A stretch of 64,000 nucleotides of DNA from Cyanobacteria bacterium FACHB-471 (GTDB lineage: Bacteria; Cyanobacteriota; Cyanobacteriia; Elainellales; Elainellaceae), in NCBI GenBank assembly GCA_014695345.1, contig JACJOC010000077.1:310001-374000 (forward strand). The letters are read 5' to 3'. Each line of letters opens with the position of its first letter. Positions within the stretch are counted from its first letter, which is position 1. Of the stretch, positions 56,453 to 62,605 are shown in pieces. The translations under genes and the position numbers were made by a program. Under the pieces are notes generated by a model, which was given only the letters and a program-made list of their open reading frames with translations, was not told where the DNA came from and searched no databases.

Positions 56453-57232
56453 CTATCCTCCTGCTACCATTGCCTCGACCGCTTCGCCGCGCAGCAGCCC
56501 CATGATTTCTTCCTTATAGTCCTGAAATTTGGGCTGGCGCTTGATGTGGTAGTCTCGCTGACTCGGCAAGTCCAGCACAACCTCACGCAAAATAGTGCCG
56601 GGGCGTGAAGTCAAAACGTAGATGCGTTGCGATAGAAAAACGGCCTCTTCAACATCGTGAGTAATCATGAAAATGCTGGTGCGGGTACGCTCCCACACTT
56701 GAAGCAAAAATTGCTGCATCGTTTCTTTGGTTTGCACGTCCAGCGCTCCAAAGGGTTCGTCCATCAGCAAAATTTTGGGCTGAGAGGCAAGAGCGCGGGC
56801 AATCGCCACCCGCTGCTTCATGCCGCCAGATAGCTCCTTGGGTAAGGCGTTAGCAAATTGCGATAGTCCTACCACGTCCAGATAATAGGACACGCGCTGT
56901 TTGCATTCCTTCTCAGACATGCCCTGCAACTTCAGCCCAAAGCCAACATTCTTGGCAACGGTCATCCAGGGATAAAGCGTGTAATTCTGAAATACCATGC
57001 CTCGATCTGCGCCTGGACCTGTCACCCGTACTCCGTCTACCCGCACCTCGCCCGCTGTTGGCGTTTCCAACCCAGCAATCAGACGCAGCAGGGTAGATTT
57101 ACCAGAACCCGACGCACCCACCGCGCAAACAAATTCGCCCTCCTCAATGTGCAAATTAATGTCTTTGAGGGCAACAATCGGACTATTTCGAGTCTTAAAC
57201 TGTTTGTGGAGTTGAGCAACTTCAAGGTACAT
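56453..57232 (-). CDS. ABC transporter ATPase of the guanidine import system
   Basis: 259 residues from ATG 57232. Walker A is VGASGSGKSTLLR, the ABC signature is ELSGGMKQRVAIARAL, Walker B is ILLMDEPFGALD. It belongs to the nitrate/sulfonate/taurine (SsuB/TauB-like) group. It ends the minus-strand set gdmH-hypA-hypB-substrate-binding protein-permease-ATPase. The order matches the sll1077-sll1082 set of Synechocystis, a guanidine-linked operon. The gap to the permease is 172 bases. Confidence 0.88.
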   Translation of the reverse strand: MYLEVAQLHKQFKTRNSPIVALKDINLHIEEGEFVCAVGASGSGKSTLLRLIAGLETPTAGEVRVDGVRVTGPGADRGMVFQNYTLYPWMTVAKNVGFGLKLQGMSEKECKQRVSYYLDVVGLSQFANALPKELSGGMKQRVAIARALASQPKILLMDEPFGALDVQTKETMQQFLLQVWERTRTSIFMITHDVEEAVFLSQRIYVLTSRPGTILREVVLDLPSQRDYHIKRQPKFQDYKEEIMGLLRGEAVEAMVAGG

Positions 57233-57404
57233 AGCTGTGAGTGAGGTAAGTGTGAGTAGCAGAAACCCGTTAGCAGTTAAAAATTAGAAGTTAGAAATTG
57301 AAGCAGATGTAGGGGTGCAGCATTCGGCAGATAGCCCTTCAAATAAACTAAGAATTCTCGCCCGAATGCTACGCCCTCATAGGGGAATAAGCTTTTCAAG
57401 CCTT

Positions 57405-58262
57405 TCACGTTGCCCAGCGTCCGGTGAGTTTTAATAGCAGCCGAAACAGCAAGTCGATTGCCAGACCAATCAAACCAATCACAATTAACCCAGCAAAAAT
57501 TTCATCCGTTCTCAGAAACCGCTGAGCAATACTAATTCGCTTGCCTAACCCTTCAGTTGCAGCAACGAGTTCTGCCACAATCACCAAGTTCCAGGATGAA
57601 GCCATGTTGACGCGATAGGCATCAATAATGCTGGGATAGATGTAGGGCAAAATTACCTGAAGTAAAACCTGTAAGCGTTTCCCTCCCAAGGTGTAAGTTG
57701 TTTCGATTAATTCTTTGGGAACAAACTTAACGGCATCCATAATCATTAGCGTGTTGAAGAATAGGGTGCCGATGAAAATCAACAGAATTTTGGGAACTTC
57801 GCCCAAACCAAAATAAAGAATTAGGAGGGGAATAAAGGCAGGGGCTGGCATATAGCGAATGATGCCAATGATGGGTTCCAGAAGCGATCGCCAACTCGCA
57901 AACGAACCCATTAATACACCCAAAGGGACAGCAATAATCGCTGCTAAAAAGAAACCGCTAAAGACCCGAAACATGCTGTAGGCGATGTCTGTGGGCAGTA
58001 TTCCCTCCGTCCAAAGGCGTTGCAGTGCTGCTAGAGTTCGTAATGGAGTTGGCAGAAAGATTGCATACACTTCATAGTTTGCAGCGATGTATTCAGAAAC
58101 CATCCACCAAAGGGCGATCGGTACAGTGATCGACAAAACGATCAGCGTCCAGGACAAGTTCTTAGGAATATCTTCCGCAATTCGCCAAAACACAGTAGGC
58201 GGCAACATTCTGGGCGCATCAGAAACATTTTCGTTCCCTATAAACTCGCTAGATTGGCTCAT
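57405..58262 (-). CDS. ABC transporter permease of the guanidine import system
   Basis: 285 residues from ATG 58262. Six hydrophobic segments in the BPD_transp_1 style; the EAA-type loop is around ELIETTYTLGGKRLQVLLQV (about 188-207). The family is the nitrate/taurine/sulfonate permease type, and the transported compound is inferred from the neighbouring guanidine hydrolase and riboswitch. Between the substrate-binding-protein gene (136 bases) and the ATPase gene. Confidence 0.9.
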   Translation of the reverse strand: MSQSSEFIGNENVSDAPRMLPPTVFWRIAEDIPKNLSWTLIVLSITVPIALWWMVSEYIAANYEVYAIFLPTPLRTLAALQRLWTEGILPTDIAYSMFRVFSGFFLAAIIAVPLGVLMGSFASWRSLLEPIIGIIRYMPAPAFIPLLILYFGLGEVPKILLIFIGTLFFNTLMIMDAVKFVPKELIETTYTLGGKRLQVLLQVILPYIYPSIIDAYRVNMASSWNLVIVAELVAATEGLGKRISIAQRFLRTDEIFAGLIVIGLIGLAIDLLFRLLLKLTGRWAT

Positions 58263-58398
58263 TTGCTTTGCCTCAAAACTGCCTTAAATTGCCTGTGCTT
58301 TTGCAAGCAACATGACCTACCTAAACCATCAAATGACGGGTAGGAGGTAAGAGGTTGCCTAAACCCAATTCCTACCTGCTACCTAACCTTCCAATTCT

Positions 58399-59436
58399 TT
58401 ATCCCTTCCCTGCCTGTTCTGCGTAAGCTTTGATAAACCGATCGTCAAAGATGTTACTCACGTCAGGAGCTTCTTGAACCAACTCGCTTTCTACCAGGAA
58501 TTGGCTAATTTGTTCAGCAGCATAGGGCAAAGAAGACATATCTGAACCTGCTTCAAAAGCCTTGAGGTTGTCCTCAATACTGAAGATGGTTGTGCCCTGG
58601 TCGTATTCTTTGTACTCATCAACAGTCACGCCTGCCCGCTTCGACATGGTGTCGAATGCCTTGTCCTGATTTCCTTCGATGAATTCCAGCGTGGCAAACC
58701 AGGTATTGACTAGAGCCTGAACGTCTTCAGGACGCTCATCAATCATTTGACGGGTCACAACTAGGTGATCGGGAATTGAACCTGGATAATCTGCTGAAGT
58801 AAACAGTGGTTTGCTTCCCGGACGTTCTAGAGCCTGAGTGGTGAATGGGGCAAACACTCCAACTGCGTCTAACTGACCTGCCGCAAAAGCCGCCGCTGCT
58901 GCCCCAGTCTCTAAAGGCTGAAAATCGATATCAGCCTGAGTCATTCCCGCCTCTTGCAAGCCTAACAACAGCAGGAAATGGTCAACCGTGCCCTCTTCTG
59001 CTGCAACTCGTTTGCCCCGCAGATCCTCAACAGAGTTAATTTCCTCGCTGGCAATAATCATGTCGTTGCCAGTCGAGTTGTCGTTGACTAGAACAATCAC
59101 CTGATCTGAGCCAGCAGCCACGGAGCTAATCGTGTCATTGAGCGTTTGAGTATTTGCGTCAAGCTGTCCAGAGGCCAGGGCATTAATTGAATCGAGATAG
59201 CCATCAAACCATGTCAGTTCAACGTTGACATTGTTTTGCTCAAACAAGCCTTCCTCGTCAGCCACCTGCCAAGGAATCCAACCGGGCCAAGCGCTGAAGC
59301 CCATAACGACAGGCTCGGCAGCAGTATCCGTACCAGGGGTTGCAGAATCCGTGCCAGGATTGGGTGCACAGCTTACTACAACGACTAAACCAAACAGAAA
59401 AGCAACTCCCCAAGATAACAGCTTGCGAATTCTCAA
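58399..59436 (-). CDS. substrate-binding lipoprotein of the guanidine import system
   Basis: 345 residues from ATG 59436. A lipobox (VVVVSCAPN, Cys about 23) anchors it. The fold is of the NMT1/THI5 or SsuA/TauA type: GFSAWPGWIPWQVADEEGLF near 46-65, VELTWFDGYLDSINALASGQ and GSKPLFTSADYPGSIPDHLV. It should bind the cationic substrate outside the cytoplasmic membrane for the permease and ATPase. A 202-base gap with a palindromic repeat (copy D) separates it from hypB. Confidence 0.9.
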   Translation of the reverse strand: MRIRKLLSWGVAFLFGLVVVVSCAPNPGTDSATPGTDTAAEPVVMGFSAWPGWIPWQVADEEGLFEQNNVNVELTWFDGYLDSINALASGQLDANTQTLNDTISSVAAGSDQVIVLVNDNSTGNDMIIASEEINSVEDLRGKRVAAEEGTVDHFLLLLGLQEAGMTQADIDFQPLETGAAAAAFAAGQLDAVGVFAPFTTQALERPGSKPLFTSADYPGSIPDHLVVTRQMIDERPEDVQALVNTWFATLEFIEGNQDKAFDTMSKRAGVTVDEYKEYDQGTTIFSIEDNLKAFEAGSDMSSLPYAAEQISQFLVESELVQEAPDVSNIFDDRFIKAYAEQAGKG

Positions 59437-59553
59437 TTCAGGCTCCTTTAGAACAGGTTGGTTAGTGAATGAATAGCGATAACTTTGCTGATAGCTCTAA
59501 TAAACTTGAACTATTTTCAGTTGGAGATTCACCCAATGTAGATTCACCAAACT

Positions 59554-59641
59554 GTAGGCTGGGTAGAGTTTAAGAAACCCAACAGTCTTTGAATCAAGCA
59601 AGGATTTAGATCTGTTGGGTTTCTTGCTTCAACCCAACCTA
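59554..59641. repeat. dispersed palindromic element, copy D
   Basis: GTAGGCTGGGTAGAG...AACCCAAC ... GTTGGGTT...AACCCAACCTA. The right end overlaps the hypB stop codon (TAG on the minus strand, 59641-59639), so the element abuts or supplies the end of hypB. Confidence 0.75.
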
Positions 59642-60349
59642 TACAGGTGTCAAGTTTTGCGTTTTAGAAGTCGTTTGAGCCGAAGGAACTTGTGACTGTA
59701 GCCAGTCAAACCAAATGGCTAATCCTTCTCCGGTTTTTGCAGAAACGGGAATAATTGTTGCATTTGGATTCATCTGACGGACGTTGGAAATGATTCGGTC
59801 TATGTCAATCTCTAAATAAGGGGCTAAGTCCATTTTGGTAATGAGTAAGCAATCTGCTTCTTGAAACATCACCGGATATTTCAGCGGTTTGTCTTCTCCT
59901 TCAGTAATGCTTAAAAGGGCAACCTTGGCATGTTCTCCGACTTCAAATTCAGCAGGACAAACCAGGTTTCCAACATTTTCAACTAACACCAAATCAAAAT
60001 CAGAAGGGTTGTATTGATGCTCTAGCTGATGCAGTCCACCCGCTACCATTTTGGAATCCAGATGGCAGGAACGTCCAGTGTTGATTGCGATCACAGGAAC
60101 GTTATATTGGCGCAGGCGATCGGCATCTAATTCTGTTGTCATATCGCCTTCAATTACGGCGATTTTTAGCTTTTGGTTTAAAGCTGACAGGGTTTTTTCT
60201 AGTAGCACGGTTTTACCTGCACCGGGACTGCTCATGATGTTGAGGCAGGTGATTCCCCATGCGTCAAAGTGAGCACGATTGTGGTCGGCTCCTTCCTGGT
60301 TTGCGTGGAGCAGATTAATTCCCAGGGCAGCGTCAAAGGTTTGATGCAT
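59639..60349 (-). CDS. hypB: Ni-chaperone GTPase HypB of the guanidine hydrolase set
   Basis: 236 residues from ATG 60349; the frame extends to 60388, but the MHQTF start fits the family and overlaps the hypA end by 17 bases. G1 is [12 protein letters not shown], Walker [13 protein letters not shown] with the metal-site Cys, NKMD-like [11 protein letters not shown] (G4). No His-rich nickel-store stretch at the N-terminus. HypB with HypA loads nickel; here, next to gdmH, it should mature the guanidine hydrolase, not a hydrogenase, and no hydrogenase gene is in the window. Confidence 0.93.
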
Positions 60350-60713
60350 AACTTTCCGCAGAGTCAGAACAGTATTCGATTCGGTCAATTTTTAGCTCTC
60401 GCCCTGAGCGAATGTCTTCCAGGGGCGATCGACATTCAGAGCAAGCATATTGAACGCCGATTTCAGGGCGATATTCCTGCTGGCAATGGTGACAAAAGGC
60501 AATCAAGGGCGTTTCTTGAATGACCAGTTTGGCGGCTTCTAGAAACGTGTTTCGGGTTTGCACTTCAAAGGCAAACTGCAAGCTAACAGGTTCCACACAG
60601 GTAAACTGACCGACAGTAAGATGCACATGAGAAATTTGGGGGCGTTCTGGCTGCGCTTCCCACCAATCTCGCACTGTTAAAATCAGTGCCTTTGTCATAT
60701 CCGTTTCATGCAT
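60333..60713 (-). CDS. hypA: Ni-chaperone HypA of the guanidine hydrolase set
   Basis: 126 residues from ATG 60713. The first two residues Met-His (with Glu3) carry the Ni-binding His of the family, and the zinc site is CHHC (about 74-77) and CSEC (about 91-94). It transfers nickel with HypB. It lies 39 bases after gdmH and its stop overlaps the hypB start. The C-terminal 30 residues are a longer tail than in E. coli HypA. Confidence 0.93.
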
Positions 60714-60752
60714 AGCAAAAAGTCCAAAATTTGCCTCTCGTTCTCCATTCCT

Positions 60753-61952
60753 CTAGCTCCACTCAACAAGTTCGGGTTGAGCTTCGGGATGAATGTAGGC
60801 AGGTTTTTGCGATCGCGGCAGTTGTCCTGACAGCACCAGATGCGCCATCGTGTCGCAGATGACCCGTGTTGCCATTAATGAAGTAATATCGCTGATGTCG
60901 TAGGGAGGTGAGACTTCAACCACTTCCAGCCCACAAACTGGAGCTTTTTCGACAATCTTGCCAAGCAGGTAGAGTGCTTCGCGGGGCATCAGTCCACCGG
61001 GCTCTGGCCAACCTGTGCCAGGGACAAAGCCTGCGTCAATGCAGTCAATGTCGAAGCTGATATAGACGCAATCGGTGCCATCTAGGGCGCGTTCTAGAGC
61101 AAAGTCAACCGCAGCATCCAAGCCCCGTTCAACGATGTCAGTAACGGTGAGGATGTTAGTGGCGCGATCGCGACATACTTTCACACCCTGACGCGGTACC
61201 TGCCAACCGCCGATACCAAGCTGCACCAGATTTTTGGCAGGAGCATTTTTCATATTGGTGGCGTGAAACCAGGGGCAGGTGTGCATCCGCTCGTCTAAGT
61301 CGGTTTCCTGAGTATCCACGTGGCGATCGAAGTGAATGATCCCTACTTTTTTGTCACCTAGATGCCGACAAACCCCGCGTACAGTCGGAAAGCCAATCGA
61401 GTGGTCTCCACCCAGAATGATTGGAAATGCACCAGAACTGAAGACGTGAGCGACTCCTTTGGAAATTTGGTCAAACGACTTCTCGTTATTGGCTGGAATG
61501 GTAAAAATATCGCCAACATCGCAAAGCGTAATTTGTTCGCGTAGGTCGATGCCTAGCTCAAAGTTGTAGGGAGTGTAAAGCGCAGAAATGCGGCGAATTC
61601 CCTGTGGTCCAAAGCGGGTGCCAGGACGGTAAGTCGTGCCCGAATCGTGCGGCACACCGATGATCGCCACATCATATTCCCCGACCTTTCGTACGTCTTC
61701 TACGTAGGGCGCTTTCAGAAAGGTATTGATACCTGCATAGTGAGGCAGTTCGCCGCGAGAAAAGGTGGGAATGGAGCGATCGCGAATGCTTTCAGCCGCT
61801 TCTAGCCCAAACTCTAGCCCTCTAGCGACTTCTTGCTGCCACCCAGTCATGGGCAAATGAGTTTCCCGTTCTAGAGCATATTGAGCCTCTGTTTGAGGTT
61901 GATGTCCGTTAGATGGATTTTGAAAGAGAGGATCATCAGTCATGTAAGTCAC
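60753..61952 (-). CDS. gdmH: Ni-dependent guanidine hydrolase (arginase/agmatinase fold)
   Basis: 399 residues from ATG 61952 (ATG 61943 also possible). The ureohydrolase metal ligands are seen: GGDHS (His), IHFDRHVDT (Asp-His-Asp) and SFDIDCIDAGF (Asp-Asp). In agmatinases the second motif is usually DAHxD; the DRHVD form together with HypA/HypB and a guanidine-I riboswitch marks the cyanobacterial guanidine hydrolase group (Synechocystis Sll1077-type), often mislabelled speB. It cleaves guanidine to urea and ammonia. The N-terminal 60 residues extend past the short arginases. First gene of the operon; a riboswitch lies in its leader. Confidence 0.92.
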   Translation of the reverse strand: MTYMTDDPLFQNPSNGHQPQTEAQYALERETHLPMTGWQQEVARGLEFGLEAAESIRDRSIPTFSRGELPHYAGINTFLKAPYVEDVRKVGEYDVAIIGVPHDSGTTYRPGTRFGPQGIRRISALYTPYNFELGIDLREQITLCDVGDIFTIPANNEKSFDQISKGVAHVFSSGAFPIILGGDHSIGFPTVRGVCRHLGDKKVGIIHFDRHVDTQETDLDERMHTCPWFHATNMKNAPAKNLVQLGIGGWQVPRQGVKVCRDRATNILTVTDIVERGLDAAVDFALERALDGTDCVYISFDIDCIDAGFVPGTGWPEPGGLMPREALYLLGKIVEKAPVCGLEVVEVSPPYDISDITSLMATRVICDTMAHLVLSGQLPRSQKPAYIHPEAQPELVEWS

Positions 61953-62030
61953 CCAGAAATCGTTGAATTATGCTAATTCTTTGACTGACCTGGGAAACTC
62001 GCTTGAGTTCAATTGAACTGCAAAGCAAAG

Positions 62031-62070
62031 CCCAGGAGACAGTCTCAGCCATCAGACTGCTTCTCCCGGG
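62031..62070 (-). terminator. expression-platform terminator of the guanidine-I riboswitch
   Basis: On the minus strand CCCGGGAGA pairs with TCTCCTGGG (one G-U), closing an inner CAGTCT/AGACTG hairpin. A GCTTTGCTTTG tail follows. The first arm is also the conserved last segment of the aptamer, so aptamer folding and this hairpin exclude each other: guanidine should favour read-through. Confidence 0.75.
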
Positions 62071-62190
62071 CTTTTATCCCGCCGTGTGGCTAGCTCACCT
62101 TCCATCTAAATGGCTGCAATGGCTAGCTGGCTTCTCTCGGACCAGACACTCAAATCGTAGGACCTGAACCGGAACCCTAGAAGCGACCTA
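62060..62190 (-). promoter_or_regulatory. guanidine-I (ykkC-yxkD) riboswitch aptamer
   Basis: Read on the minus strand, the conserved blocks occur in order: TTCTAGGGTTCCGG (62180 region), CTGGTCCGAGAGAAGCC, ACACGGCGGGA and TAAAAGCCCGGGAGAA. These are the signature segments of the guanidine-I class. It lies about 110 bases before gdmH, whose product destroys the ligand. The terminator platform follows it. Confidence 0.93.
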
Positions 62191-62605
62191 ATTGTTTCTA
62201 CTAGCTTCAGCAGAGGGAACCTTAGTAAAGAACCCGTCAAAATTCGGTTTCCAAACCAGACCGCCTCTGTTCAAGATTCGAAGCAAAGTGGCTCGAACGC
62301 CCAATAGAGTGTTGCTATCCCTTCGCTGACAAACCTTGCAGATGCTTAGTAAAAGAGTTACCAATGGAACTAAATAAAAAATGTCATAGATGCTACTAAA
62401 GAACGTCAGGATCGATCAAATCTCTTAATTTTTGTCTTCCCCTGACGGCTTCCGACTTACTCATAAACTGCTGCTAAAGCCTGATGGCGTGCGATCGCCC
62501 AAAAAAAACAGCATAAGATAGACAAGAATGTAAATTTTTAGCTTTGCTTAGCCTTGCGCTGCTTTCTTTTGACCAGCCTCACCTAACCAGCCTCAACAGT
62601 TGCTA
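62191..62605. other. intergenic with the promoter of the guanidine operon
   Basis: About 415 AT-rich bases between the riboswitch and the divergent 62606 gene. No gene seen. Promoters for both directions lie here; no certain box was picked. Confidence 0.5.

Follow-up and report, generated by a model that had tools for sequence, protein, structure and literature searches.

A very probable guanidine-assimilation operon in Cyanobacteria bacterium FACHB-471

Described guanidine systems and the window operon

In Synechocystis sp. PCC 6803 the gene sll1077 shares an operon with hypA, hypB and sll1080-sll1082, and this operon is enhanced in guanidine-producing strains (available text of PMC8390497); in marine picocyanobacteria a cluster of a ykkC riboswitch, speB2/gdmH, hypA/B and a TauABC-like importer has been described (available text of PMC10119275). 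We analysed a 64 000-nt stretch of DNA (hereafter the window; G000:C94:310001-374000 in our genome and contig labels) from Cyanobacteria bacterium FACHB-471, whose genome of 7.15 Mb in 118 contigs is 99.87% complete. On the minus strand of the window a guanidine-I riboswitch is followed by gdmH, hypA, hypB and genes for a substrate-binding protein, a permease and an ATPase, in this order. We characterized this locus, with little doubt, as a cyanobacterial guanidine-assimilation operon. Its features are as follows.

62061..62191, minus strand: Guanidine-I riboswitch aptamer (RF00442, 77.3 bits, E 5e-12, full model 1-107)
62027..62074, minus strand: hairpin sharing its 5' strand with aptamer helix P3, a probable terminator/expression platform (folding)
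60753..61943, minus strand: gdmH, guanidine hydrolase, 396 aa from ATG (PDB match, residues, tree)
60333..60713, minus strand: hypA, nickel metallochaperone (TIGR00100)
59639..60388 (listed frame; likely start 60349), minus strand: hypB, nickel-insertion GTPase (TIGR00073)
58399..59436, minus strand: substrate-binding lipoprotein of the importer (TIGR01728)
57405..58262, minus strand: importer permease (PF00528)
56453..57232, minus strand: importer ATPase (PF00005)

An earlier note on this DNA had placed gdmH, hypA, hypB and a three-gene ATP-binding cassette (ABC) importer at these minus-strand positions, and the family models agree; the gene coordinates in its interval, 56453-61952, were right, whereas the riboswitch falls just outside. 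The start of gdmH is more likely the ATG at 61943, with a GTG at 61952 also possible. Translation of hypB more likely begins at Met14 of the listed frame (60349), as in relatives at loci L031 and L081, so that hypB overlaps the end of hypA.

The resemblance to Synechocystis sll1077-sll1082 noticed earlier is borne out: the gene set (same riboswitch, gdmH, hypA, hypB and the three importer types, sll1080-sll1082) is identical to that in the available text on the published operon (PMC8390497), with no difference in gene content seen in a comparison made through the PDB chain and the paper's text rather than the locus DNA. The marine picocyanobacterial cluster has the same riboswitch, gdmH, hypA/B and importer; according to the available text of PMC10119275 a putative Rieske gene follows it in most cluster-bearing Synechococcus and Cyanobium genomes, whereas in the window the two nearest genes beyond the importer ATPase are an unassigned 92-aa frame and a gene for a PrxQ-type peroxiredoxin. 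According to the available text of PMC11410670 the guanidinase operon of Nitrospira inopinata also combines a guanidine-I riboswitch with an enzyme of the GdmH type (Thr105/Trp313). It has an APC permease instead of an ABC importer and no nickel chaperones nearby. Metformin hydrolase MefH and dimethylguanidine hydrolase DmgH are nickel-dependent ureohydrolases that are also encoded with hypA and hypB (available text of PMC11399263); they differ in being two-subunit enzymes with other substrates, and they score at most 145.8 bits against the window GdmH. The guanidine carboxylase pathway, too, serves guanidine assimilation behind guanidine-I riboswitches and apparently occurs in the same cyanobacterial family, but it uses a carboxylase with two UAAP/carboxyguanidine deiminase-type subunits; no such set was seen at the window locus, the only part of the genome in which it was sought. 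A departure from the published system was sought in the window operon and none was found, as gene order, residues and riboswitch all match. The operon is already known, a further instance of the published system with no new mechanism; for one more cyanobacterium, its description sets right the labels that databases would probably assign (agmatinase, hydrogenase maturation, sulfonate transporter).

Enzyme, nickel chaperones, importer and leader

The GdmH product matches the Arginase family model (PF00491, 262.4 bits). Against PDB chains it scored 782.6 bits with the Synechocystis guanidinase (7ESR/7OI1, PDB name 'Probable agmatinase 2') and 598.3 bits with the Nitrospira guanidinase (9FEK); the next-best ureohydrolase was proclavaminate amidinohydrolase, with 171.3 bits, and chains named arginase reached at most 95.5 bits. 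Among named organisms, Leptolyngbyaceae cyanobacterium RM1_406_9 has the closest gdmH (97% identity), which marks the host as a cyanobacterium of filamentous type. A tree was built from 23 rows: 13 of the 80 gdmH loci that we fetched, seven PDB rows (aligned stretches only), the window enzyme and two paralogs from its own genome. The window enzyme and both verified guanidinases fell into a group of 16 rows with support 100/99; outside it were two agmatinases, guanidinobutyrase, guanidinopropionase, proclavaminate amidinohydrolase and the two paralogs. Some branches of the outgroup are long, and bootstrap values had not entirely converged. The phylogeny proposed in the earlier note has been run in part: the enzyme stands with verified guanidinases and apart from agmatinases in a tree that holds no arginase or metformin-hydrolase row, arginase being compared by PDB bit score only.

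The residues at the active site point the same way. Specificity positions are Thr97/Trp305 in the Synechocystis enzyme and Thr105/Trp313 in that of Nitrospira (available text of PMC11410670); the window enzyme carries T104 and W312 there, plus H221 and E343, and both Thr and Trp are kept in all 80 fetched relatives. At these positions the two own-genome paralogs (on contig C82, and on C94 near 262 kb) carry Ser and Thr, both specificity residues being missing in each; the Trp is missing from all five non-guanidinase PDB rows, with the Thr present in two of them (3nip, 4dz4). All six ureohydrolase metal ligands (H181, D206, H208, D210, D298 and D300) are in place, and in one of the 80 relatives a metal-ligand His is replaced by Asp. 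The DRHVD motif, singled out earlier, is indeed common to the window enzyme and both verified guanidinases; one of the 13 gdmH tree rows shows DRHAD and the other aligned ureohydrolase rows show DAHxD. These comparisons support a GdmH-type identity, and by analogy with relatives the enzyme is predicted to act on guanidine and need nickel, and the organism to grow on guanidine. GdmH is widespread in the class: a ureohydrolase match (paralogs counted) was found in 307 of 388 class genomes at E 0.001, the best 150 matches all having E 1.7e-222 or lower.

HypA scored 117.1 bits with TIGR00100 (cut-off 88.1) and has CxxC motifs at 74 and 91 and an N-terminal MHE; HypB scored 308.9 bits with TIGR00073 (cut-off 121.2). 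The window copy is the only HypB above cut-off in the genome, where the second-best match to this model, on C19, is UreG of a urease cluster, and a weaker match lies on C73. The earlier statement that the window has no hydrogenase gene holds, for NiFe hydrogenase, across the whole genome: neither the large subunit (PF00374) nor HypD (PF01924) had a match, the control Synechococcus elongatus being positive for both; HypC, HypE and HypF were not searched.

To this we can add the distribution in 36 genomes of the family, 27 of which have a completeness of 90% or more and a contamination of no more than 5%. A full GdmH match was found in 22 of the 36 (in G220 in two pieces; a 56-residue fragment in G214 was left uncounted), and HypB above cut-off in 25, namely in all 22 GdmH genomes and in 3 of the 14 others (Fisher p 6e-7, kinship ignored). 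The three genomes with HypB and no GdmH (G099, G109 and G207) all have a NiFe hydrogenase match. No such match above cut-off was seen in 16 of the 22 GdmH genomes, including G180, which has a weaker one. With this distribution HypB tracks GdmH as well as hydrogenase. Since the window genome has no NiFe hydrogenase match, no HypD match and a single HypB, its hypA and hypB would most simply serve GdmH by delivering nickel to it, making this a clean natural case of HypA and HypB without a NiFe hydrogenase to serve.

In the importer, the binding protein belongs to SsuA_fam (TIGR01728, 225.9 bits, cut-off 163.5), the permease to BPD_transp_1 (PF00528, 88.7 bits) and the ATPase to ABC_tran (PF00005, 121.6 bits). 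At L127, L136 and L133, relatives of this importer directly follow a riboswitch and are separate from gdmH; at L037 and L081, and weakly at L045 (39.3 bits), the importer has its own second riboswitch. The binding proteins of L037, L081, L127, L133 and L136 are 59-63% identical to that of the window, and that of L045 is 59% identical. Such positions behind riboswitches, at this level of identity, are good indirect evidence from genomic association for guanidine as the predicted substrate. A different ABC transporter set, with a binding protein 27% identical to the window's, follows hypB at L019:12522-15223; this could be a third importer type.

The riboswitch scored 77.3 bits with RF00442 against a gathering score of 63 and thus belongs to the covariance-model family; it lies at 62191-62061 on the minus strand, and nothing else in the window matches Rfam at gathering thresholds. 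The 48-nt leader hairpin has a folding energy of -31.9 kcal/mol, against a mean of -18.59 (sd 2.91) for shuffled sequences, and in the ligand-free minimum-energy fold the hairpin forms and P3 does not. The Guanidine-I class is described as an ON switch (available text of PMC11410670), and the predicted leader fold, though with no clean U-run after the hairpin, would fit such behavior. Reasoning from the sequence and the published class, without guanidine the 3' strand of P3 would pair downstream in the long hairpin and transcription would stop, while binding of guanidine would stabilise P3 and let transcription proceed.

The ABC importer would then bring guanidine into the cell, HypA and HypB would load nickel into GdmH, and GdmH would convert guanidine to urea and ammonium, leaving the remaining nitrogen to be freed by urease encoded elsewhere in the genome. 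A urease cluster able to finish the pathway lies outside the window: the gamma, beta and alpha subunits and UreG are encoded together on C19 (L094). UreD, UreE and UreF of this cluster are guesses from place and size, no NCBIfam match to them being found at E 1e-20. A second urease alpha gene is on C104 (L095), with no beta or gamma gene nearby by eye in the open reading frame listing.

Alternative readings and points against the operon

Could the enzyme be an agmatinase, or another ureohydrolase of guanidino acids, in an operon for arginine or polyamine breakdown? The nearest NCBIfam models are in fact those of agmatinases, and the warning in the earlier note that the gene is easily mislabelled was therefore to the point; still, both scores are under the curated cut-offs (PRK02190, 207.2 bits against 302; TIGR01230, 170.9 against 174.3). 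As the tree splits the enzyme from two agmatinases at 100/99, as Trp312 is absent from the five non-guanidinase PDB rows and from both paralogs, and as the gene sits behind a guanidine riboswitch, we rejected this reading as extremely improbable. Similarly, HypA and HypB both pass models of hydrogenase maturation, and one could suppose that maturation genes were placed here by chance. A NiFe hydrogenase match above cut-off does occur in 6 of the 22 GdmH genomes of the family, and two of these, G066 and G247, have a single HypB (the match in G247 is a 27-bit fragment). However, the other four (G039, G138, G159 and G173) have two HypBs, the hydrogenase sharing a contig with one of them in all but G039, and the window genome is free of matches to both PF00374 and HypD; this reading, too, was rejected, with hardly any chance left to it. 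The importer leaves somewhat more room. It might take up a different compound of nitrogen or sulfur (taurine, sulfonate, urea or nitrate) and be a mere neighbour of gdmH, given that its best family names are transporters of aliphatic sulfonate, urea and taurine and that the nearest solved proteins to its binding protein bind sulfonate, nitrate and taurine. Yet close relatives stand alone behind guanidine riboswitches at L127 and L136, and at L133 one sits between the riboswitch and an apparent guanidine-carboxylase set; with importer relatives directly behind guanidine riboswitches, sulfonate transport was rejected and an importer of this other kind is improbable.

Several observations weigh against a single guanidine-controlled operon. 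Gaps of 136-202 nt separate hypB, the binding protein, the permease and the ATPase, so that a single transcript is only putative. Where at least 5.5 kb follow gdmH (64 relatives), counts with bit-score thresholds specific to this analysis gave the six-gene order of the window in 42 and its absence in 22 (hypA was present in 63 and hypB in 62); the importer and the enzyme are therefore separable modules. No clean, canonical U-tract follows the leader hairpin, and a terminator scan gave 6 sites where 7.3 were expected by chance, none of them at this hairpin; results of the promoter scan were at chance level. With a model built from 16 aptamers, a match within 700 nt upstream of gdmH was seen in 70 of the 80 loci, six of which belong to the model-building set and match by construction, and 10 loci had no match (L027, L032, L040, L043, L044, L045, L064, L066, L067 and L083). 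In addition, no family model in the NCBIfam and Pfam scans names the importer as a guanidine transporter.

Other possibly guanidine-linked loci in the genome and family

A sodium:solute symporter gene lies near gdmH in 5 of the 80 loci: in L059 and L074 it is found downstream of hypB, whereas L027, L031 and L044 have it on the opposite strand. It has its own guanidine-I riboswitch in L031 and in L128, whose genome (G159) carries gdmH on another contig; L027 and L044 are without a riboswitch match. The L059 protein matches PF00474 above cut-off (124.7 bits), the L128 protein scores 126.6 bits with TIGR00813, below the cut-off of 184, and the nearest solved relatives are choline transporters. 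The symporter was sought only in loci picked mostly for gdmH or a riboswitch, and this selection accounts for part of its link to guanidine. Our literature search on symporters with guanidine found, among the papers accessible to it, none on this symporter, and the word 'symporter' is absent from the available main text of PMC11410670. We regard it as a candidate alternative guanidine importer, which, if true, would give cyanobacteria a second route of guanidine uptake.

A second guanidine-I-like aptamer is present in the same genome on C36 (12259-12388; L092:1501-1630). It scores 46.5 bits, below the gathering score, and deviates at 5 of the 44 invariant columns of a 16-sequence alignment (counted by eye); it may have decayed rather than been retargeted. 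It precedes a gene for a metallo-beta-lactamase-fold hydrolase (PF00753); the gene divergent from this one encodes a cyanuric acid hydrolase (469.7 bits against a cut-off of 360). In G089, from another genus, an 86% identical hydrolase lies behind a riboswitch of full strength (73.3 bits); the protein after it looks like a BMP-type binding protein, although its score of 64.5 bits is far short of the model cut-off. The pair of hydrolase and BMP-like protein occurs in 6 of 14 neighbourhoods examined, and the C36 contig ends just past the hydrolase.

L130, L160, L161, L163, L164, L167: metallo-beta-lactamase-fold hydrolase with BMP-like protein

At E 1e-20 the hydrolase or a homolog was found at 16 loci in 15 of 388 genomes. 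As only 2 of the 16 loci, some with little upstream sequence, carry a guanidine-I match, the data argue weakly for a guanidine role of the hydrolase. The literature search gave no paper joining a guanidine riboswitch with cyanuric acid hydrolase. We only tentatively suggest, at somewhat less than even chances, that the guanidine-I regulon exceeds the published genes, with the symporter replacing the ABC importer in some lineages and the C36 aptamer possibly sensing guanidine or a related nitrogen-rich compound.

Apparent guanidine-carboxylase operons were seen behind a riboswitch in six GdmH-free genomes of the family (G089, G109, G200, G207, G254 and G273), the family models having been run on the G200 locus, L129, only.

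L129, L131, L132, L133, L134, L135: apparent guanidine-carboxylase operons

This suggests that, in this family, one of the two pathways (GdmH or carboxylase) takes the place of the other, the GdmH genomes not having been searched for the carboxylase.

Finally, C82 of the window genome (L096:3730-10370) encodes a ureohydrolase nearest to guanidinopropionase and guanidinobutyrase, adjoining genes for a creatininase, a Rieske protein, an amidohydrolase and a binding protein only 37% identical to that of the window importer. It looks like another cluster for utilisation of guanidino compounds.

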